Below are positions 33,241 to 45,102 of a stretch of 64,000 bases of DNA, in pieces; within the stretch, counting starts at the first letter, position 1; each line of letters begins with the position of its first letter. The translations under genes were made by a program, and so were the position numbers. The stretch lies in NCBI RefSeq assembly GCF_014193515.1, contig NZ_BLXX01000001.1:1-64000 (forward strand). Reading direction: 5' to 3'. The DNA comes from Geomonas silvestris (GTDB taxonomy: Bacteria; Desulfobacterota; Desulfuromonadia; Geobacterales; Geobacteraceae). The notes under the pieces are model-generated. The model worked only from the letters and a program-made list of their open reading frames with translations, did not search any database and was not told where the DNA came from.

Positions 33241-33708
33241 ATGGCTGGGTTCTTCCCTCGTCTCGCGCTGAAAACGAGACGGGCAGTCGCCACGGTATTT
33301 TCGAGCGGGCTCACGCCGCACAAGCTCGCGCAGACGCTCTGCCTTGGTGCGGCCGTGGGAATGCTGCCACTTATCTGGGGGACGTCGCTTATTTGCGCCG
33401 GGCTCGCGACCCTCATGCGGCTGAACCAGGCCGCCATACAGGCCGTGAACTACTGCTGTTATCCTCTACAGATCGCGCTGTTTCTGCCGCTGTGCCGCTT
33501 GGGCGAACGAATCTTGCCGTACGGGCCGCCCCTCGGCCGCGAGGTGCTGGAGGCCGCGCTGCACGGCAACATCGGCACGTCGGCGACGCTCATCGTCTGG
33601 GGGACCTTCCACGGCCTCGCGGCTTGGCTGGTGACCGTCCTGCCGCTCGCACTCCTCATCCAGGCACCCCTACGCCGCGTCCTGGTGCGCCGGCAGTCCT
33701 CAGACTAG
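33241..33708 (+). CDS. DUF2062-domain membrane protein
   Basis: A 155-aa protein with the typical DUF2062 layout: SSGLTPHKLAQTLCLGAAVGMLPLIWGTSLICA in the first helix, then LNQAAIQAVNYCCYPLQI, two more hydrophobic segments, and a basic C-terminus. The family is an integral membrane domain of unknown role, often fused to glycosyltransferases. Here it stands alone. Its 3' end overlaps the convergent small zinc-binding gene by 53 nt. Confidence 0.82.
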   Translation: MAGFFPRLALKTRRAVATVFSSGLTPHKLAQTLCLGAAVGMLPLIWGTSLICAGLATLMRLNQAAIQAVNYCCYPLQIALFLPLCRLGERILPYGPPLGREVLEAALHGNIGTSATLIVWGTFHGLAAWLVTVLPLALLIQAPLRRVLVRRQSSD

Positions 33709-34098: not shown

Positions 34099-35151
34099 CT
34101 AGACTTTGTCGGGCTCGACGTGGAACCTCAGCGTCGCTGCGGTTACCCGGCTCAGGCCTGTGTAGAGAAAGATGACCAGCCAAAGAAGCTGCAGCGCCAA
34201 AAGCGTTCCGGGGCTCCAAATAAGGGACCACCCGTTGGCAAGATCTGCAGCGGGGGACCGGTCGTCCCCGAAAAGCCAGGCCATGACGAACCCGTAGGCG
34301 ATACCCAGGATCCCCATGATCTGGTAGGCGGAGATCCGCCCAGCACCGCGGTAGTCATCGCGGAGGAGCTCCGAGACCACCCGCCAGGCCTGGGTTACCG
34401 CCAGGGTTACCAGAAAACTCGCCGCATAACTCCCCGCGAGAAAGAGGATGCAACCGGCAAGGCCCGCTCCGCAGTAGAGCACATAGGTGAGCGCCTGGAC
34501 CGGTACGACCTTCACCCCGTCGAGCTGTGAAGCATACGCAATCTTCTTGGTTTTTCCGGTGAAGGTGAGCGCGAGCGGTGCCAGCAGCCGGGCCAGTCTC
34601 GGGTGGCAGTGCGACAGTGCCTTGCCGTAGCAGCAGCCAAAGCTCAGGCAGGCGAGCCTGCCGAACCCTTCACCGAAGGCGTAGGCGATGGAGATAGCGG
34701 AGAGAGCCACAAGTGGGGGCACCCGGTCCCCCTGGTCCCCCAGCGCGAGGCGGTTCACCAGTTCCACGATCCAGGGCGCGACCAGGGTGCCGATAAAGAC
34801 CGCCCCCCCGACCGTGAAGGTGTTGGCCTTTTTCTCCACGACCTGAGCCACCAGGCGTGAGGCCGGCACACAGCAGAGCAGCAGGAGGACCACCAGAAAC
34901 ACGATGGCCCTAAGCGAGATCCCTGCCGCACCCATGAGCAACAGGGCCAGTGCCGTAGCGGCGAGATAGGCGTTGGCGGTCAGGACGCCGTACCAGGTGA
35001 GGTTGACCCCGCCCCAACTGCCGTCGCCTGCCTTGTTAAGCGGCACGGCCGCTGCGATCTGCCATCTTTCCGCCGGCAGCCTGGTGACGCCCCAGGCGAG
35101 GTAGAGGGCCGAGAAGGTGCTAAGGGTAATGAGAAAAAGGGGTTGTGCCAT
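34099..35151 (-). CDS. Divergent Lgt-family integral membrane protein
   Basis: A 350-aa protein with eight to ten membrane helices, starting at 35151 (GGAGGA nine bases upstream; ATG 35160 sits too close to it). Several segments follow the prolipoprotein diacylglyceryl transferase pattern: NLTWYGVL near the start, GEGFGRLACLSFGCCYG in place of GRxGNFxNGExYG, VPVQALTYVLY in place of HPxQLYE, and RVVSELLRDDYRG with a later SAYQ. The essential Lgt histidine of the HPxQLYE box is absent (V), and the protein is longer than Lgt, so it probably does not make lipoproteins. It ends an operon with psd and an unknown gene and may act on the same lipid. Confidence 0.65.
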   Translation of the reverse strand: MAQPLFLITLSTFSALYLAWGVTRLPAERWQIAAAVPLNKAGDGSWGGVNLTWYGVLTANAYLAATALALLLMGAAGISLRAIVFLVVLLLLCCVPASRLVAQVVEKKANTFTVGGAVFIGTLVAPWIVELVNRLALGDQGDRVPPLVALSAISIAYAFGEGFGRLACLSFGCCYGKALSHCHPRLARLLAPLALTFTGKTKKIAYASQLDGVKVVPVQALTYVLYCGAGLAGCILFLAGSYAASFLVTLAVTQAWRVVSELLRDDYRGAGRISAYQIMGILGIAYGFVMAWLFGDDRSPAADLANGWSLIWSPGTLLALQLLWLVIFLYTGLSRVTAATLRFHVEPDKV

Positions 35152-35194
35152 GTTGAACATTCCTCCGTTGGCTACCTATCTAACGTCCCACCCG

Positions 35195-36202
35195 TCAGCG
35201 TGCGCGCGCAAGCAGCGCGCGCACCCGGATGTCGGTTTCCACAAGCGGCGCACCGAACCCCAGGGAAAACCGGCTCACCGCGTCGCGGCGTTTCTGGTTG
35301 GCGACCAGGTCGCCGGCAAACTCGACCCGCCCGCGCTGGAACAAGACGATGTCGGTGGAACTCCCCGGCCGGTAGAGCGATTTGGGCTGCCCCTTCTCAA
35401 GGAACATACCCGGGCGCACCGATGTGGGATCTCGGTACTCCTCACTGCTGTAGCACTGCACGATGTCGCCGATCATAAGCGCCACCACCTCCACCAGGGC
35501 CACGAGCCCCACGCCGGTGCCGCCGCGCACGTCGGTGTCGATCACGGTCACCACCCGCCGGTTTTTCGAGTAGGGAGTCGCCACGGTGACGATGGCGCTC
35601 GGGTTGCAGGAGTTGAACGCGCCGTCGATCTCGTAGATGTCGGCCACCTCGCCGGAGACCGGGCAGTGGTTGTAGTGATACTTGTCCGGGGTGAGCCGAA
35701 ACAGGGCGAAATCGCCCTCCTTAAACGCGGCAAGCCAAGGGCGCCGGTCGCCGCCCAGAAGTTCCTCAAAACTGAAGAACTTCTCCTTGATGAAGAGGCT
35801 CGAGGTCTCCCGGCAGGAGCCGACCAGCACCCGGGCATCCGCCGGAGAAACCGCCTGCCCCGGATCGTTATCCATCGGCCGGCACTCCCAGTAGCGGATC
35901 TGGCGCTCGAAGACCTTGCGCGGGGTGTCGAGCTCCTCGGGACTGGCCAGGCACTCGTCAAGGTCCACGGCAAGCTCTTTCAAAAAACGGCCGGTCGCCG
36001 AACCGAGACGACCGAAGGGGAGATCGTAGTTCAGATACCCCAAGATCTCCGTCGCCCGCGGGCTGGTGAGGAGCCGGAACAGCCCCGGGGCGTTCTCGCG
36101 CACCTGGTGGTACATGAGCCGGACCAGCCGGTCGCCGAAAAGCGGTTCGTTGCACAGGGCGCCGCTATCCCGCGCGATAAATTGGTGCTGCCTGGTCGGC
36201 AT
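35195..36202 (-). CDS. Phosphatidylserine decarboxylase-family protein
   Basis: A 335-aa protein from ATG 36202, with AAAGGAG upstream. The C-terminal part has DKYHYNHCPVSGEVADIYEI, a histidine-containing PSD motif, and YRPGSSTDIVLF at about 278-289, which matches the GS(S/T) self-cleavage site that yields the pyruvoyl cofactor. The N-terminal 110 residues are extra compared with E. coli Psd and resemble the extended PSD-like group. It would decarboxylate phosphatidylserine or a related amino-acid head group. It overlaps the upstream unknown gene by 38 nt and precedes the Lgt-like gene by 43 nt, so the three form one operon. Confidence 0.8.
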   Translation of the reverse strand: MPTRQHQFIARDSGALCNEPLFGDRLVRLMYHQVRENAPGLFRLLTSPRATEILGYLNYDLPFGRLGSATGRFLKELAVDLDECLASPEELDTPRKVFERQIRYWECRPMDNDPGQAVSPADARVLVGSCRETSSLFIKEKFFSFEELLGGDRRPWLAAFKEGDFALFRLTPDKYHYNHCPVSGEVADIYEIDGAFNSCNPSAIVTVATPYSKNRRVVTVIDTDVRGGTGVGLVALVEVVALMIGDIVQCYSSEEYRDPTSVRPGMFLEKGQPKSLYRPGSSTDIVLFQRGRVEFAGDLVANQKRRDAVSRFSLGFGAPLVETDIRVRALLARAR

Positions 36203-38639
36203 GTCCGGTTCTCCTTTGCAGATAGGCGTGGGATTTCTCCTGGTCGCGGTTCACGGTGACCAGGGCCAGGTTGAGAAGTGAGGTCAGGCGCTCAAGGTCC
36301 AGGCGCTCCGCTATCAGGTCCTCGCGCACCTGGGTGAGAAACGGTGCGGCTCCCCCGCGGGCGCAGGCTCTCAACATGCCGCGTTCCAGTTCGTCCCCCC
36401 TGGCCGCGGCGACATCGAGTGCCAGGAAATCCTCCTCGAGGAACGCCAACCCTTCAACGATATGCCGGCGCCTGAGGCCGTTACGGTAGTAGCGCTCGGC
36501 CCCTAGGTTGAATTCGTCGGCGGGCACCTTCATGGGGTCGGTCGCGTTCAGCTCCGACAGGATGCCGTGGGTCAGCTTGCCGGACGCCGAGTGCCGCTCG
36601 GGTTCGACGAGCCGCTGTTCGAGGTTGTCGATGGTCCGCTCCAGGCCGAGCATCTCGATGAGGTCTCGGGCATCGCGGCGCACCAGGGAGAGAAGCGCCA
36701 GGCGGTACTCCTGCACCTTGACCCTGAGATACCCGGGATAGCGGTGGCTGGCGCGCACCTCGCGGGTCTTCTCGATGATGCGCATCAAAAAGCGGTTCTT
36801 ACTCTCCCGGTGCACGAAGAAGGTGGGGTTTCCGATGGCGGCGGCGAAGAAGATCTGGCGCCGCTCGCTCTCCAGGGTGGGATCGTCGGGGATGTCGGCG
36901 TGGGTCAGTTTTCCCTGGGCCAGGTACTTGAATGCGAGGGCATTGACCAGCAACTGCAGATCGCAGCCGCCCCCCAGGTCGTCCAAAAGCGAATCGAACT
37001 GGCTGTAGTGGCGCCCCTCGAACCCGGAGAACCCCATGACGGCGTGCTCGCGCAGCTTGTAGAGGAGATAGAGCGACATCTGCCGGTCGAAGACCCCCAG
37101 CTCGCACAGGTCGCGCTTGAGCTTGTCCGAGTTCCCGAGCCGGCCGTTTAAGGCGGGGCTTTGCGGGGTGCTCAGGAGGCAGATCAGGTAGTCGACCAAG
37201 CGGTAGTCCGGGACGAAATCCCCCTTGAGACCGAAGAGGCCGCTCACCATCCGGTCGATCCAGGGAGGGCCGAAGGGGGTCACTGGCTGGCCGAGAACCG
37301 AGAGGCTCGCCTTTTTCTGCCAGCGCCGCCAGAGCATGCGCAGGTGGGTGTAGTCGAGTTCGTGCGGCAGGAACCCGAGGGCTCGCTCGGGATGGAAATC
37401 GGTGTACCCCAGCCGGTACGGGGAGGCGGAGAAGGTGCCGACGAAAAGCGGCAGGAAGTGCTCCGCCATCTTGATGGTGAGATCGCCCAGGTACTTCTCG
37501 TGGGCGGCGTCTAACCCGGAGTGCGGATCCCCCAGGAGCCTGCCGAGCTTGCGGCTTCCGAGACTTACGTGGGTGCCGTTGTTGGCGAGGCTTACGTTGG
37601 AGACGTTGGGGAGCACCACCAGGTTGTTAATGATGATTCCCGCTTCGCGGAGCTTGGCCACGGCGTTGAGCTGGCTTCGGGAGAGTACCTGGTGGCACAG
37701 CTGCATGTAGCGGTACTTCTCCTCGCCGCGGTCCCAGCCGGAGAGACAGGGGCTCATGAAGAGTTCACGGTAGAAGGCGTCGGCCACCTGACCGTTCAGT
37801 TCCTTCTGGCGCACCGGGGGGTGCGGCGCGAAGTAGACCAGCGCGCGCTGCCCGCTCTCCTTGAGGCCGAAACTCTCGTTCGCGTAGTGGAGTAAAAGTT
37901 GGGTGAACAAAAAACGCTTGGAGGTTTCCCGGGCCAGGGCGCGTCCCATGCCGCCTTGCCGGGTGAGCGGCACCACCTGGAAAGAGAAGGTCTCGGGGGA
38001 GGTGTTGTCGTTTAAGTAGTGACCCATCAGGCGGCGGCCGGTCGCCTCGAGCTCGTGGGGGAGCGTTTGCGAGCCCAGGAGGTCGGCGAGGGCGAGCTTG
38101 AGAAGATAGCTCACCGGTACCCGCAAAAGTCGTTCGCCGGAAGGGGCACTGACGAAGAAGCGCCCCGCATCGCCGCGCCTCCCTGCGTCAGGGTGCTTCT
38201 TGTCGGCTTGCAGATCTGCTTCCAGGACCTCGAGAGCAAAACCCGAGAGTTTGCGCAGCGGGAAGCGGACCCAGCTGTTCTCCCAGACCTGGTCCCGGTT
38301 GCCGCTTAGGTAGCCGTCCAGGTCCGCGATGAGCCGCTTGGGGGTGTCACCGGCCGCGGCGCGTTTGGCGATGTTGGCATAGTAGTCGGATTGCTCGATG
38401 GTAAGCGGGAGATCGACGTCTCCCCTGCTCCCGGCAACTACGGCCTGCAGTTCTGTTTCCGTGCCGCCGGTTGCGTCGTCGGGTGCAAAAGGGAGCCGTT
38501 CCAGGAGGGAGCGTCCGTCCCCTTCCGGGGCCAGCAGACGCGACATGATGTTCTTGAGGAAATGAGGGTGCAGTTCGGTGACGGTTGACGGTGAGTTGTC
38601 CCAGGATGCGCCAAAGAGCGGTTCCTGTTGTCGTGGCAT
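36165..38639 (-). CDS. Unrecognised 825-aa cytoplasmic protein, first gene of a psd/lgt-like operon
   Basis: The start at 38639 has a perfect AAGGAGG and gives MPRQQEPLFG; the longer frame upstream has no ribosome-binding site. No signal peptide or membrane helix is seen. The sequence is globular, mixed helix and strand, with some motif-like islands: LVYFAPHPPVRQKELNGQVADAF, LPNVSNVSLANNGTHVSLGSRKLG, LGYTDFHPERALGFLPHELDYTHLR and AIGNPTFFVHRESKNRFLMR. These conserved-looking histidines, aspartates and asparagines suggest an enzyme, but I cannot place it in a family. The tight overlap with the psd-family gene argues for a shared lipid-related job. Confidence 0.85.
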   Translation of the reverse strand: MPRQQEPLFGASWDNSPSTVTELHPHFLKNIMSRLLAPEGDGRSLLERLPFAPDDATGGTETELQAVVAGSRGDVDLPLTIEQSDYYANIAKRAAAGDTPKRLIADLDGYLSGNRDQVWENSWVRFPLRKLSGFALEVLEADLQADKKHPDAGRRGDAGRFFVSAPSGERLLRVPVSYLLKLALADLLGSQTLPHELEATGRRLMGHYLNDNTSPETFSFQVVPLTRQGGMGRALARETSKRFLFTQLLLHYANESFGLKESGQRALVYFAPHPPVRQKELNGQVADAFYRELFMSPCLSGWDRGEEKYRYMQLCHQVLSRSQLNAVAKLREAGIIINNLVVLPNVSNVSLANNGTHVSLGSRKLGRLLGDPHSGLDAAHEKYLGDLTIKMAEHFLPLFVGTFSASPYRLGYTDFHPERALGFLPHELDYTHLRMLWRRWQKKASLSVLGQPVTPFGPPWIDRMVSGLFGLKGDFVPDYRLVDYLICLLSTPQSPALNGRLGNSDKLKRDLCELGVFDRQMSLYLLYKLREHAVMGFSGFEGRHYSQFDSLLDDLGGGCDLQLLVNALAFKYLAQGKLTHADIPDDPTLESERRQIFFAAAIGNPTFFVHRESKNRFLMRIIEKTREVRASHRYPGYLRVKVQEYRLALLSLVRRDARDLIEMLGLERTIDNLEQRLVEPERHSASGKLTHGILSELNATDPMKVPADEFNLGAERYYRNGLRRRHIVEGLAFLEEDFLALDVAAARGDELERGMLRACARGGAAPFLTQVREDLIAERLDLERLTSLLNLALVTVNRDQEKSHAYLQRRTGHADQAAPIYRAG

Positions 38640-39195
38640 TGAGACCTCCTTCGCGGCCCTCGGTTGGCCCGCAGCTCCTATGTACCTGAGCAATATGGAG
38701 ATCAGGTGAACTCTGGGTAAAAGGTCGGTGACCGAGAAGAGAAGTGCATCCAGCTGACCGAGGGACGCGCGGAACCACTCACGGCAACGCGGCGGGACGG
38801 CCCTTGACACACCGTGACGCGCAGTTTTTTGGGCGAATCTTCACCTCCCCGAAATGAAACTGCAACAGTTGCCTTCTAGAATCGCCGGGAATACGTGTCA
38901 CGACGGGCGGTGGACAACGGAAGGATTTGTGTTATCTAATGATACTCAAACATCTTCGACACCAACCAGCCTCATTAAAAGTTTTCTGGGACTGGTGGGT
39001 GCCGAAGCGGACAGGAGTCGAGGCGCCCAGCCTGGTACCACAGAAAAAAATTCAAGAAAAGGACGGATAGACCGATCAGTTACCAATGGAGTCGTCTCCA
39101 CCCGGCCGCTACCGGCAGTTCCAACCTGCCGACGGGACTGAAATTGGGGACGCAGCGCTGTACTGAATTGTCTTCCCCAAAAAAGGAGAAACCTC
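38640..39195. other. Intergenic region between the lipid operon and the 135-aa gene
   Basis: About 555 nt between divergent genes. It should hold the promoter of the 825-aa gene operon and, near 38935-38960, a TTATCTAATGATACT stretch that could be the -10 region of the 135-aa gene. The short reading frames in it lack ribosome-binding sites and recognisable sequence. Nothing else was found. Confidence 0.5.
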
Positions 39196-41242: not shown

Positions 41243-42268
41243 CTACTTGAGGGTCTTGATGGTCTTTTCCACCATCTTCATCACGTTCTCCGGAAGCGGC
41301 GCATAGAGCATCGGTGCGGCCATCTTCTGCCCCTTGTGCAGGCTCCAGTTCAGGAACTCGACCAGCTTTTTCCCTTTGGCGGGATCCTTGGCGTGCTCGT
41401 AGACCAGAAGCCAGGTGAAGCCGACGATCGGGTAGGCGTCCTTGCCGGGCTGGTTCACCAGGGAGATGCGGTAGTCGGCCGGCATGTGCTTGACCGCGCC
41501 AGCTGCGGCAGCCGAGGTCGAGTGGATGGAGGGCTCCACGAAGTGCCCGGACTTGTTCTTGAGCGAGGCGTAGGGGAGCTTGTTTTCAAAGGCGTAGGCA
41601 AGTTCCACGTAACCCAGGGCATAGGGGGTGGTCTTCACCTGGCCGGCAACACCCTCGTTACCCTTGCCACCCAAACCGGCCGGCCACTTGACCGAAGTCC
41701 CCTTGCCGACCTTGTGCGACCACTCCTGGTTCACGCTGGAGAGGTAGTCGGTGAAGATGCTGGTGGTCCCGGACCCGTCCGAGCGGTGCACCACGATGAT
41801 CGGCTTGGCCGGCAGCTTCACACCCGGGTTGTCGTCGGCGATTTTGGGATCGTTCCACATGGTGATCTTCCCCAGGAAGATGTTGGCCACGTCCTCGGAG
41901 TTGAGCTTGAGGCCGCTGGGGATGCCCGGCAGGTTGTAGGTCACCACGACGGCGCCCATCACGGTCGGGATGTGGACCAGTTTGCCAGGGGCGGCTTTCA
42001 GCTCCTCGTCGGAGAGAAATTTGTCGGAGGCGCCGAAGTCCACGGTCTGCGCGGTGATCTGCTTGATCCCGCCGCCGGAGCCGATCGACTGGTAGTTGAA
42101 TTTGACGCCGGAATCGACCTTGGCGTACTCGCTGAACCATTTCGAGTAGAGCGGGTACGGGAACGTCGCCCCGGCACCGTTGATCAGGGTTTCGGCCGAT
42201 GCCGTACCGGCGGCGCAGAGCGATACCAGCGCCAAGGCGACCGCAACTCTTCTTAAGGATTGGAACAT
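41243..42268 (-). CDS. pstS: Phosphate-binding periplasmic protein PstS
   Basis: A 341-aa protein with a signal peptide ending AGTASA. The binding-cleft signatures are LINGAGATFPYPLYSKWFSEY, YQSIGSGGGIKQI, the DFGASD loop, and VHRSDGSGTTSIFTDYLS, which together form the phosphate site. It delivers phosphate to the PstCAB transporter. No pstC, pstA, pstB or phoU gene is adjacent; it ends at its own terminator and the upstream genes are unrelated. It is thus an orphan copy, possibly with a dedicated regulation. Confidence 0.94.
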   Translation of the reverse strand: MFQSLRRVAVALALVSLCAAGTASAETLINGAGATFPYPLYSKWFSEYAKVDSGVKFNYQSIGSGGGIKQITAQTVDFGASDKFLSDEELKAAPGKLVHIPTVMGAVVVTYNLPGIPSGLKLNSEDVANIFLGKITMWNDPKIADDNPGVKLPAKPIIVVHRSDGSGTTSIFTDYLSSVNQEWSHKVGKGTSVKWPAGLGGKGNEGVAGQVKTTPYALGYVELAYAFENKLPYASLKNKSGHFVEPSIHSTSAAAAGAVKHMPADYRISLVNQPGKDAYPIVGFTWLLVYEHAKDPAKGKKLVEFLNWSLHKGQKMAAPMLYAPLPENVMKMVEKTIKTLK

Positions 42269-42359: not shown

Positions 42360-43943
42360 TCAGGAAGAGGCGGCAAACCGGGCGAGGCTCTCCACCAGTT
42401 CTCCCTCGAGGGTCGGATCCAGGTGCGGGATCTTACTCTGCCCGCCGAGCTTCCCCCGCACCTCCTTGGACCAGCGGTAGATATCATCCTCCTTGAGCAC
42501 CAGTACTGAAGGAGAGGTGATCCTCCCCTGGGACCGGAAGGTACGGTAGTCCGCGTTCTGCTCGGCAAGCGCCAGATCCAGACGCTCCGCCAGGACTCCG
42601 GGCGCCACCCCCCCCCCGTCGGAAAGCGCCAGTACCCACAGGTGCCTGCGCGGGGCAATCTGCGGCCCCACCATGAATTCGCGCACCTCGACCCCGGGCA
42701 AACGGTTCAGACGCGCCACCGCCTCCTCGACCTCTCCTTGAGTTACCTTCTCCTCGAACCGGTCCAGAAATTTATCGCGCCCGGTGAATTCGAAGAAGAG
42801 CGGGCCGCGTTCGGTGAAGCGTATGGTGTCGCCGATGTGGTAGCGCCAAAGCCCCGCGCAGGTGGAAAGGATGAGAGCGTAGCGCCGACCGGGCTCGATC
42901 CCTTCCAGCGGCACGCAGCTGCCGTCGGGCCGGGGACGCCCCCGCTCGTCCAGATCCTCGCAGGGGAGGAACTCGAAGAAAACCCCGTAGTAGGGGGTAA
43001 GCCGCATCTGGGGTTCGCCGTGCACCTGGAACCCCATGAATGCCTCTGAGGACGGCAAGAGTTCCAGGAAGTTGGGGGCGCGTTCCGGGAAGAGTTCGCT
43101 GAACTCTCGTGCGTAGGGCTTCATGCTGGTGCCGCCGTGGATCACCAGTTCCAGGTTGGGCAAGAGCCGCTCCGGGGAGTCCTGCCCCAGTTCGGCGACC
43201 CGCTTTAAGAGCAGGATGATCCAGGGGGGAACTCCGGAGATGCCGCGGATGCAGGGATCCTTCAGGAGCAGCCGGGCCAGCGCCTCCAGCTTCTCCTCCC
43301 AGGGGAGCGCAGCGGTCGTCTCGTCGGGGGCGATGAAGGGATCCAGGAAACGGGGGCGGTAGCGCAGGGTGATGGCGCTCATGTCCCCGCTCAGCACCCC
43401 GGGACCGAGTTCGTTGAGCTCGGTGCTCCCGGCCATGTAGAGAAGCCGCCCCTGAAAGAGACGGCTTTTGCGGTTTCCCTTCAGGTAGCAGGAGGTGAGA
43501 TCCAGCGCGGCCAGCCGGTTGGCGGCGAACATCTCCCGGGAGAACGGGATGAACTTGCTGGGGGCGGTGGTCCCGGAGGTCTCGCAGAAAAAGGGGATCC
43601 GGCCCGGCCAGGTGAGGTTCTCGAGGTTCAGGGTGAGGCCGCGCTCCCCTTCCCGCGCGCCGCGGCTGAAGTAGTCGCGCCAGAAGTCGTCGTAGGTCCG
43701 GATGGCGACCTTGCCCTGGTAGCGCCGGTAGGCCTGGGCAAAGGGGAGCCGGGCCAGCTCGGCGAACCCGTAGTCGGCGCCGAAACGGGTCCGGGCGCCG
43801 CGTTCAAGCAGCCAGGAGAAGATCCGGCGCTGCTCCTGCAGGGGATCCCGGGCGGCGAAGCGGGACGCCTGCAGGAGGGAGCCGCCCTTCAGCAGGGGGT
43901 CCAGGAAGGGATATGCGGCGTGGCGCAGGGAAGTCTTCATCAT
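42360..43943 (-). CDS. GH3-family acyl-adenylating enzyme
   Basis: A 527-aa protein of the GH3 family, named for plant auxin-conjugating enzymes. Motif 1 is CETSGTTAPSKFIPFS (ATP loop), motif 2 is LLPSSEAFMGFQ, followed by YYGVFFEFLP and motif 3 CAGLWRYHIGDTIRF and FTGRDKFLDRFEEKV. All adenylation motifs are present. GH3 enzymes activate a carboxylic acid with ATP and join it to an amine; the bacterial substrates are unknown. It overlaps the upstream hydrolase gene by 4 nt, so the pair is coupled. Confidence 0.88.
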   Translation of the reverse strand: MMKTSLRHAAYPFLDPLLKGGSLLQASRFAARDPLQEQRRIFSWLLERGARTRFGADYGFAELARLPFAQAYRRYQGKVAIRTYDDFWRDYFSRGAREGERGLTLNLENLTWPGRIPFFCETSGTTAPSKFIPFSREMFAANRLAALDLTSCYLKGNRKSRLFQGRLLYMAGSTELNELGPGVLSGDMSAITLRYRPRFLDPFIAPDETTAALPWEEKLEALARLLLKDPCIRGISGVPPWIILLLKRVAELGQDSPERLLPNLELVIHGGTSMKPYAREFSELFPERAPNFLELLPSSEAFMGFQVHGEPQMRLTPYYGVFFEFLPCEDLDERGRPRPDGSCVPLEGIEPGRRYALILSTCAGLWRYHIGDTIRFTERGPLFFEFTGRDKFLDRFEEKVTQGEVEEAVARLNRLPGVEVREFMVGPQIAPRRHLWVLALSDGGGVAPGVLAERLDLALAEQNADYRTFRSQGRITSPSVLVLKEDDIYRWSKEVRGKLGGQSKIPHLDPTLEGELVESLARFAASS

Positions 43944-45022
43944 ACCGCCGCAAGGAGCATCGGAGCCTGGAGCCTGTCGTACCAGACCCGGATCAGTGGG
44001 TTATAGCAGTGGTGGTGGAAGATGAGCGAGGCGTGGGCCACGGCGTCACCCGGGGTGCGGGAGCTCACCTGGCACAAAAGGCCGCGCGGGAAGAGCGCCT
44101 TCTTACGCTCCGGGTGCTGCAAAAGGTTCAAGGTCGGCGAGGTGGGCACCAGCAGGTTCTCCTCGTCCTCGGCCAAAAGAGCGAGCGCGGGTCCGGTGAA
44201 GATGGGACGCCGGCCGTCGGGGCGGACGAACTGCTTCAAGGCGAGCACCCGCTGGTAACCGCCGGTAGCAGGGGTGGTCTCGATGACCTGCATGATCTTC
44301 TTCCTGATGGAGAGGTGACGGGTGGAGAGCACCCGGTTCTGCGCCCCCGCTTCGAAAAGCGCCTGAAAACAGCGCCGGGCCCGCTCGATCTGGCGCGCCA
44401 GCAACTCCCCACCGTCGCTCCCCGCCTTAAGGATGCGGCGCAGGTTGCTCTCCAGCATGCGCACCCCGCCCTCCTTGTCCTCCTCCGGGCGGATCAGGTC
44501 GTCGGTACAAAGTACCGGGCTCGCCATAACCACACCGCGGATGCGGAAGGCCTGGGTCTCCTCGCTCTCCTGGAGAAACCTGGTCAAGAGGCCGCAGCCG
44601 AAGCTCACCCCGAAGAGGACCGGGCGCTGATCCCGGTTGTTGAGGTGCTCGATGAGGTCCCCGAGTTGGGCGAAGAACATCTCGCAGGAAAAGCCGTTCC
44701 TGGGGTAGTTGAGGTAGTAGATGCTGCCGTACTCGCGAAACAGCGAGCGCTGGAACTCCACCTGCTCGGTGGCGTCCGGCACGAAGCCCCCGACCACGAC
44801 AGTGGGAATCGACCCGCTCCCCTTCTCCTTGTAGATTTGGGCCCGGCAGCCGTGCAGGGTATCGACCCGGTCCTTGAGCTGGAACTCGCGCCTTCTTAGT
44901 TTCGGGGTGAACGGCTTGATGGACAACTGCCTCATGAAGCCGGTGGCCACCGTGGCGGCACCAAGCAGTGCGGGGTTTCCAACCAGAGTCTTTCTGACGA
45001 AGGGGAGGACCGACCTGTACAT
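43940..45022 (-). CDS. Alpha/beta hydrolase-fold protein coupled to the GH3 enzyme
   Basis: A 360-aa protein from ATG 45022 behind GAGGAGAG; the upstream ATG at 45058 lacks a site. The nucleophile elbow is VLFGVSFGCGLL, preceded by VVVGGFVPDATEQVEFQ, a typical oxyanion-hole strand, and YYLNYPRNGFSCE. The C-terminal HASLIFHHH contains the likely catalytic histidine. It could be an esterase, amidase or acyltransferase. Its coupling with the GH3 enzyme suggests that one makes and the other processes the same acyl conjugate. No close family name is offered. Confidence 0.75.
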   Translation of the reverse strand: MYRSVLPFVRKTLVGNPALLGAATVATGFMRQLSIKPFTPKLRRREFQLKDRVDTLHGCRAQIYKEKGSGSIPTVVVGGFVPDATEQVEFQRSLFREYGSIYYLNYPRNGFSCEMFFAQLGDLIEHLNNRDQRPVLFGVSFGCGLLTRFLQESEETQAFRIRGVVMASPVLCTDDLIRPEEDKEGGVRMLESNLRRILKAGSDGGELLARQIERARRCFQALFEAGAQNRVLSTRHLSIRKKIMQVIETTPATGGYQRVLALKQFVRPDGRRPIFTGPALALLAEDEENLLVPTSPTLNLLQHPERKKALFPRGLLCQVSSRTPGDAVAHASLIFHHHCYNPLIRVWYDRLQAPMLLAAV

Positions 45023-45102
45023 ATAACTCTCCTCTGTTTTTACGGCAGTATCCCTCATGAGAGTTACGGACTTGTGGCAACGGCGGCAAATTTTGGAAAA
45101 CT

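Follow-up and report, generated by a model that had tools for sequence, protein, structure and literature searches.

What does a large soluble protein of no recognised family do at the head of an operon whose other members resemble enzymes of phospholipid and lipoprotein metabolism? The question is raised by a locus in the first 64,000 nucleotides of contig NZ_BLXX01000001.1 of Geomonas silvestris (this whole stretch is the window below), where an 824-amino-acid protein, which we call U824, is encoded ahead of a phosphatidylserine decarboxylase-family gene (PSD2) and an Lgt-like gene (LGTL). The three form one conserved gene module, and we propose, at what we judge to be an even chance, that it is a lipid-remodelling operon of the Pho regulon in Desulfobacterota, making a diacylglycerol-based aminolipid that is most likely free of phosphorus.

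The locus and its reading frames

The core of the locus comprises three genes.

36165..38639, minus strand: U824, 824 amino acids, ATG at 38639, stop codon ending at 36165; proposed to be a GCS/PafA-superfamily ligase that joins carboxylate to amine with the use of ATP
35195..36202, minus strand: PSD2, phosphatidylserine decarboxylase-family proenzyme (PF02666, E 7.2e-37) with the self-cleavage motif PGSS
34099..35160, minus strand: LGTL, Lgt-like membrane protein, 353 amino acids (PF01790, E 1.8e-9, above the curated cut-off); a proposed diacylglyceryl transferase that would depend on phosphatidylglycerol and use a non-protein acceptor

The initial annotation of this DNA placed an 825-residue open reading frame (ORF) at 36165..38639. 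Those coordinates hold, and the length is corrected to 824 residues plus a stop, on the minus strand; the plus-strand reading of the same interval contains several stops. As that annotation also stated, a ribosome-binding site (AGGAGG) lies 5 nt 5' of the ATG, and the protein lacks a membrane segment, since no 19-residue Kyte-Doolittle window exceeds 1.6 (maximum 1.39). The ORF coordinates bear out the 38-nt overlap of U824 with PSD2 and the position of the Lgt-like gene next in line, its ORF starting 34 nt past the PSD2 stop. The U824 reading frame is conserved beyond chance, because relatives are encoded at 290 loci across GTDB species genomes, and 79 relatives that we aligned are 50-76% identical to the window protein. 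The two sequence islands named in the initial annotation are indeed conserved across the resulting 80-row alignment, from which one homologue with an in-frame TAG (L039) was omitted: H273 of PHPPVRQ is kept in 73 of 80 rows, and H357, N353, N354, S359 and G361 of SLANNGTHVSLGS are kept in 80 of 80. In-frame TAG codons occur inside U824 of L039 (genome G004), G294 and G361, Geomonas sp. Red32 being among these genomes, and may reflect pseudogenes, assembly errors or an otherwise unexplained cause.

A conserved three-gene module

U824 is an accessory gene, since only 6 of the 19 genomes of the window's genus carry it; it is present in 18 of 39 genomes when the window's own genome and its relatives are taken together. 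We used the best 80 of the 290 loci as our locus set. These come from Geobacteraceae, Desulfuromonadales, Syntrophales, Syntrophobacterales, Desulfobacterales and kin, nearly all within the Desulfobacterota, and the carriers of the module are anaerobic soil and sediment bacteria. Within this set PSD2 lies near U824 in 77 loci and LGTL in 70. The three loci with no PSD2 nearby are L096, L103 and L105. Of the ten with no LGTL nearby, five (L044, L047, L082, L114, L115) sit at contig ends with at most 1.1 kb left; for the other five (L040, L059, L096, L103, L105) 9 kb of flanking sequence was covered.

We also examined the linkage in 395 genomes drawn evenly across the phylum. A U824 match was found in 47 of them, 44 being long (at least 638 of 827 positions; the weak or partial matches in G040, G403 and G222 fall outside the 44). 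LGTL was present in 45 genomes, namely all 44 with a long U824 plus one, G154, that gave no U824 match, and U824 and LGTL share a contig in 43 of the 44, at a median distance of 3.3 kb. At least two PSD-family genes were found in 44 of 44 genomes with U824, compared with 24 of 351 without. All three genes lie together in each of the 40 loci taken from this draw, which represent 40 of the 44 genomes. The three genes therefore behave as the single unit that the initial annotation took them for, and its alternative, that homologues might never occur beside psd or Lgt-like genes, is answered by adjacency in all 40 loci.

The same annotation had looked to synteny across distant phyla as support, which goes further than the best 80 loci do: these are nearly all from Desulfobacterota, the exceptions noted being single metagenome bins labelled Candidatus Brocadia and Nitrospinae. 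Those bins (L072, L091) carry U824, PSD2 and LGTL, their U824 proteins being 57-58% identical to that of the window, and the module there may reflect transfer or misbinning. None of 24 pattern-matching stretches on viral contigs encodes a U824 relative.

U824 and the carboxylate-amine ligase fold

By sequence, U824 belongs to no family that can be named, as had been said at the outset: no match was recovered in Pfam, NCBIfam, PHROGs or PADLOC, and none up to E 1 in the first two. Sequence searches of the PDB turned up nothing but NifB and a ribosomal protein, both with E-values of 0.8 or higher, which we rejected. Structure prediction had been proposed earlier as a check. A model built with 80 homologues is confident (mean predicted local distance difference test score, pLDDT, 87.6; predicted template modelling score, pTM, 0.91), and its match to a characterised family is weak. 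Seven of its first ten Foldseek matches in the PDB belong to the glutamate-cysteine ligase/PafA/Dop superfamily (two E. coli entries, the Francisella and yeast glutamate-cysteine ligases, two chains of PafA, and Dop), with probabilities of 0.23-0.93 and template modelling (TM) scores by target length of 0.35-0.50. The two E. coli gamma-glutamylcysteine synthetase entries reach E 0.08 and 0.19 with TM by target of 0.47-0.50, and every row outside the seven among the 50 PDB matches listed has a probability of 0.16 or below.

The proposed fold suggests a candidate active site. We take the metal- and substrate-binding residues of E. coli GshA to be E27-x-E29, D60, E67, H150 and E328-x-R330, letters that its sequence bears out. 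U824 has candidate counterparts in that order, with E61-x-E63 on strand 56-69, D76 opening helix 76-82, H357 on strand 356-362 and E541-x-R543 on strand 539-545, an equivalence based on order and secondary structure, not on superposition. D76, H357, E541 and R543 are kept in all 80 rows, and E61 and E63 in 79 with one gap. Because these candidate catalytic residues are conserved and lie on matching structural elements, we propose that U824 may define a new family of carboxylate-amine ligases with a GCS/PafA fold, recognised through weak structural matches.

Several observations weigh against this assignment. No PDB structural match reaches E 0.001, the best being the E 0.08 already mentioned; by E-value the second and third places go to two MmpL chains, whose probabilities are 0.04 or below; hhalign of U824 against E. 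coli GshA alone found nothing (probability 0.3%); and E82, the proposed counterpart of GshA E67, is kept in only 66 of 80 rows. No sequence similarity to the GshA/PafA/Dop superfamily was detected; the likeness consists of the weak Foldseek fold and the order and placement of the ExE, D, H and ExR elements. U824 is also much larger, at 824 amino acids against about 500 for GshA and PafA, with about 190 extra residues between the D and H positions relative to GshA and a longer C-terminal part. A Foldseek search of BFVD gave nothing under E 0.001; its best match was an unexplained Dasosvirus protein (probability 0.77). A search of the organism's own genome for GCS2 (PF04107) gave no match; PF04262 was not searched there.

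PSD2 and a separate housekeeping psd-pssA pair

PSD2 carries the features expected of its family, including the domain, the self-cleavage serine and the catalytic aspartate and histidines. The window's PSD2 was aligned with those of 30 of 73 long loci. Residues matching D90 and S254 of E. coli Psd are kept in 31 of 31 rows and those matching H144 and H147 in 30, with a gap in the remaining row, and PSD2 is thus predicted to be a working pyruvoyl decarboxylase. It reaches none of the NCBIfam equivalog cut-offs listed (117 of 371 bits at best), which sets it apart from the long-form phosphatidylserine decarboxylases that share its PF02666 domain and catalytic residues, as does its place next to U824 in 77 of the best 80 loci and in all 40 from the phylum-wide draw.

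Contig 12 of the same genome carries another PSD-family gene, whose 219-amino-acid Psd passes an NCBIfam equivalog cut-off (274 versus 225 bits). It is followed directly on the same strand, with a 4-nt ORF overlap, by pssA (137.5 versus 107 bits). The remark in the initial annotation that the U824 arrangement differs from ordinary phosphatidylethanolamine (PE) synthesis is upheld by this separate pair. Because the genome holds the psd-pssA pair and also encodes a true Lgt, PSD2 and LGTL are extra copies and presumably do a job apart from that of the housekeeping ones.

That job might still be PE. PSD2 could make the ordinary lipid, a point that counts against our proposal, and in a second PE route it would add to the PE pool during stress or at a particular site, with U824 and LGTL aiding substrate supply or membrane placement. 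The retention of every tested catalytic residue and of an ordinary self-cleavage motif agrees with such a role. We nonetheless consider it unlikely, given the pair elsewhere in the genome and given constant partners whose ligase-like and Lgt-like folds PE synthesis does not need; moreover, because PE contains phosphorus, such a product would be at odds with the Pho control proposed below.

LGTL: some Lgt residues kept, others replaced

The LGTL model has a pTM of 0.92, and below E 0.001 it has a single match in the PDB, the phosphatidylglycerol-bound Lgt of E. coli (5azb; E 6e-4, probability 1.00), so that both the Lgt domain and the Lgt fold are present. We aligned LGTL from 38 and then from 63 of 68 loci, each time with the window; L094, which has masked bases, was left out of both alignments, and L046, L054, L058 and L062 out of the second. 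The equivalents of Lgt R143, G154, R239 and E243 are invariant in 64 rows. So is the tyrosine of a WYG motif resembling Lgt Y26, which was matched by eye because the profile alignment stops short of it. A direct hhalign of the LGTL family against true Lgt gave a probability of 3%, and the motifs it aligned agree with the Pfam match.

The differences are as consistent as the likenesses. Apart from its length (353 amino acids against 291 for Lgt), LGTL replaces the equivalents of H103, N146 and E151, which we take to be important Lgt residues, with I123, C171 and C176 in the window protein, and the two cysteines are invariant in 64 rows. Because the first group is kept and the second replaced, LGTL would appear to have retained lipid handling and changed its acceptor. 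The same replacements supply an argument against our proposal: because the equivalents of H103, N146 and E151 are absent, LGTL may bind lipid without transferring it.

The presence of PafA and Dop among the structural matches of U824, together with the fact that Lgt itself acts on proteins, makes it reasonable to ask whether the module modifies proteins. U824 would then act in the manner of PafA, linking the amine of a lipid to the carboxylate of a protein or a protein amine to a lipid carboxylate, and LGTL and PSD2 would prepare the lipid. The three missing Lgt residues speak against this. So does the lack of a conserved small carrier beside the module when ORFs of at least 80 amino acids were clustered across 81 loci, smaller ORFs not being examined; Pup is presumably below that limit. 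We hold this explanation to be distinctly unlikely.

PHO-box-like repeats and probable phosphate control

The upstream regions of U824 offer a clue to when the operon is used. In the window two elements precede the gene:

38694..38732, minus strand: PHO-box-like direct repeats, GTCACC-N5-TTTACC-N5-TTCACC-N5-TCCATA, 11-bp period
38684-38679, minus strand: TACATA, a possible -10 element, 9 nt past the repeats

A de novo scan for 7-mers repeated at 11 bp recovered TTTTCAC, CTTCACA and similar words in up to 7 U824 upstream regions, compared with 4-5 regions at spacings of 9, 10, 12 and 13 and 2-3 in shuffles. As repeat motif we then used TTHACA with an 11-bp period, which we take to be the Bacillus form of the PHO box. 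From 114 upstream regions we removed 18 that share a 30-mer with another, leaving 96. Pairs of TTHACA at 11 bp with at most one mismatch occur in 19 of the 96; spacings of 7-10 and 12-16 give 1-6, the reverse strand gives 4, and 6 of 418 control upstreams have such a pair. Triples with at most three mismatches occur in 20 of the 96, against 0-3 at the other spacings and 3 on the reverse strand; they were found in 0 of 418 control upstreams, which precede mechanical ORFs of at least 250 amino acids, not verified genes, and in 0 of 170 low G+C controls. Counted by clusters of 70% protein identity, the figures are 14 of 52 versus 0-3. An earlier set of 109 regions that included same-genome copies (22 pairs, 23 triples) led to the same conclusion. 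These 11-bp PHO-box-like repeats are a feature of the upstream regions of the U824 family.

Other observations temper the identification with a PHO box. The TTHACA form was chosen after the de novo scan of the upstream regions; 76 of the 96 regions have no such triple; the E. coli PHO consensus CTGTCAT showed no excess at 11 bp; and the positive controls performed poorly, with triples of at most three mismatches upstream of 2 of 6 PstS and 1 of 23 PhoB-like genes. The best three repeats of the window carry four mismatches, as good a match as is seen in 12 of 418 controls, and on their own they are weak evidence for a PHO box. Similar repeats occur in its genus relatives.

The gene neighbourhood points in the same direction. 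The window has a gene for a PstS-like protein 2.6 kb upstream of U824. At stricter thresholds a Pho or Pst gene was found near 7 of 40 U824 loci and 0 of 40 control stretches from the same genomes, a modest difference, the control stretches being mostly contig starts, some of them short (642 kb versus 686 kb in total). A loose threshold applied to the 80 loci, with no control, gave PhoB-like regulators in 22 loci, PhoR-like kinases in 24, PstC in 9 and PstS in 4. In Citrifermentans bremense (L037:11430-16883) about 5.5 kb containing a PhoB-like regulator and a PhoR-like kinase lies between U824 and PSD2, and at the three loci L096, L103 and L105, which have no PSD2 or LGTL in the flanks, PhoB- and PhoR-like genes nevertheless stand close to U824. 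We suggest that the U824-PSD2-LGTL operon is probably switched on at phosphate shortage.

Phosphate shortage could also call for salvage, the module dismantling phospholipid to free phosphate and making no new lipid. The PHO-like repeats are consistent with this, as is a gene for a zinc-dependent phospholipase C that follows the module in 12 of 81 loci, an observation that we also count in favour of lipid remodelling. In the other 69, within flanks of up to 9 kb, no such gene was seen, and salvage has no need of a ligase or a decarboxylase, which makes this a highly improbable account of the operon.

Neighbouring genes

Further genes of the window surround the module:

41243..42268, minus strand: PstS-like phosphate-binding protein (PF12849), between U824 and the GH3 gene; context, not a proposed part of the module
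42360..43943, minus strand: GH3-family protein related to OlsH, a linked neighbour in Geobacteraceae outside the core module
43940..45058, minus strand: alpha/beta-hydrolase-like protein overlapping the GH3 gene by 4 nt, in a position like that of OlsI; Pfam matches below cut-off
33241..33708, plus strand: DUF2062 protein, a common neighbour of the module, here on the opposite strand

The GH3 gene is linked to U824. Within the genus it is present in 5 of the 6 genomes that carry U824 and in 0 of the 13 that lack it (5 of 19 overall), and across the 39 genomes searched in 14 of 18 with U824 and 2 of 21 without. The distance to U824 is about 20 kb or less in 7 of the 14, and GH3 is near U824 in 10 of the best 80 loci. 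It is possible on this basis that all five genes serve one pathway, in which an N-acyl amino acid from an OlsH/OlsI-like pair would be further modified by U824, PSD2 and LGTL. Against this, GH3 and the hydrolase were found in none of the 40 U824 loci drawn across the phylum, and PHO-like triples with at most three mismatches in none of 14 regions upstream of the hydrolase-GH3 pair (best four mismatches; the L053 row, an artefact of indexing, was not used). A single pathway of this kind therefore seems quite unlikely.

Other neighbours vary more. A DUF2062 gene is present in 28 of 81 loci, on the strand of the module in 24 of the 28. In Trichlorobacter an 810-amino-acid protein combining PHP and a GT4 glycosyltransferase is encoded between PSD2 and LGTL (L029:2032-4461, L055:12347-14779), and a relative of it occurs in 15 of 81 loci. 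At L067:12528-15765 the same gap holds genes for CHAD and CYTH proteins and, by eye, a ParA-like gene; CHAD and CYTH proteins are often linked to polyphosphate. Regulator genes separate U824 from PSD2 in single loci.

Proposed function

The initial annotation had supposed that the three proteins could make or attach an unusual amino-lipid. A ligase-like fold, an intact decarboxylase and an Lgt-like fold suit that idea; the activity itself is something we deduce from them. The chief additions to that first picture are the fold of U824, the PHO-box-like repeats and the phosphate genes of the neighbourhood. In the scheme we favour, U824 would activate a carboxylate with ATP and join it to an amine through an amide bond, and PSD2 would strip the alpha-carboxylate from an amino-acid head group. 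LGTL would bind phosphatidylglycerol as Lgt does and pass the diacylglyceryl group to an acceptor other than prolipoprotein, so that glycerol phosphate would be freed during lipid synthesis. The product would be a diacylglycerol-based aminolipid, most likely one without phosphorus. What each enzyme does, the acceptor, the sequence in which they act, the product and the phosphate response are all put forward here as predictions.

It is tempting to be more specific about the acceptor. LGTL might apply Lgt chemistry to a small amino acid in place of a protein, moving the diacylglyceryl group of phosphatidylglycerol to cysteine or one like it and yielding a phosphorus-free look-alike of phosphatidylserine, which PSD2 would decarboxylate to a phosphorus-free look-alike of PE, and U824 would then cap the amine with an amino acid. 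In this exact form the scheme is probably wrong. If true, phosphorus-free diacylglycerol lipids would have a source distinct from the BtaA, Agt and Ols pathways, with retooled lipoprotein, PE and glutathione enzymes as its parts.

Relation to known lipid remodelling

The gene set is not described in the titles and abstract openings of the papers listed by our searches of the open-licence literature, subscription journals being mostly outside that search, and both the U824 family and the three-gene combination look new. The parts seem to come from known superfamilies, and the role, if we have it right, to be of a known type. An operon found in 44 of 395 genomes of the phylum would, if the proposal is true, represent another route to phosphorus-free lipids and would bring with it a new family of ligases and a relative of Lgt that serves a new acceptor.

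Such lipids are prevalent in many anoxic waters, according to one study (PMC5193443), and the sulfate reducer treated there obtains them through glycolipid and ornithine-lipid enzymes. Ornithine lipids offer a second point of comparison. OlsH and OlsI are described as a planctomycete gene pair in an overlapping arrangement (PMC12493201), and the GH3 and alpha/beta-hydrolase-like genes of the window likewise overlap as a pair near the module. They differ from that precedent in that the GH3 protein scores 333 bits against the 620-bit cut-off of the NCBIfam OlsH equivalog, and in that the pair lies outside the conserved core.

The module also resembles the PlcP clusters of marine bacteria, in which genes for phospholipase C and for a head-group enzyme lie close together with PHO boxes (PMC4796936). 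In contrast to those clusters, no core gene of our module is BtaA, BtaB or Agt, and the phospholipase here belongs to the zinc-dependent family of Pfam and is present in only 12 of 81 loci. U824 neighbourhoods nevertheless keep similar company, with PHO-box-like repeats, a phospholipase C gene in some loci and a putative head-group enzyme.

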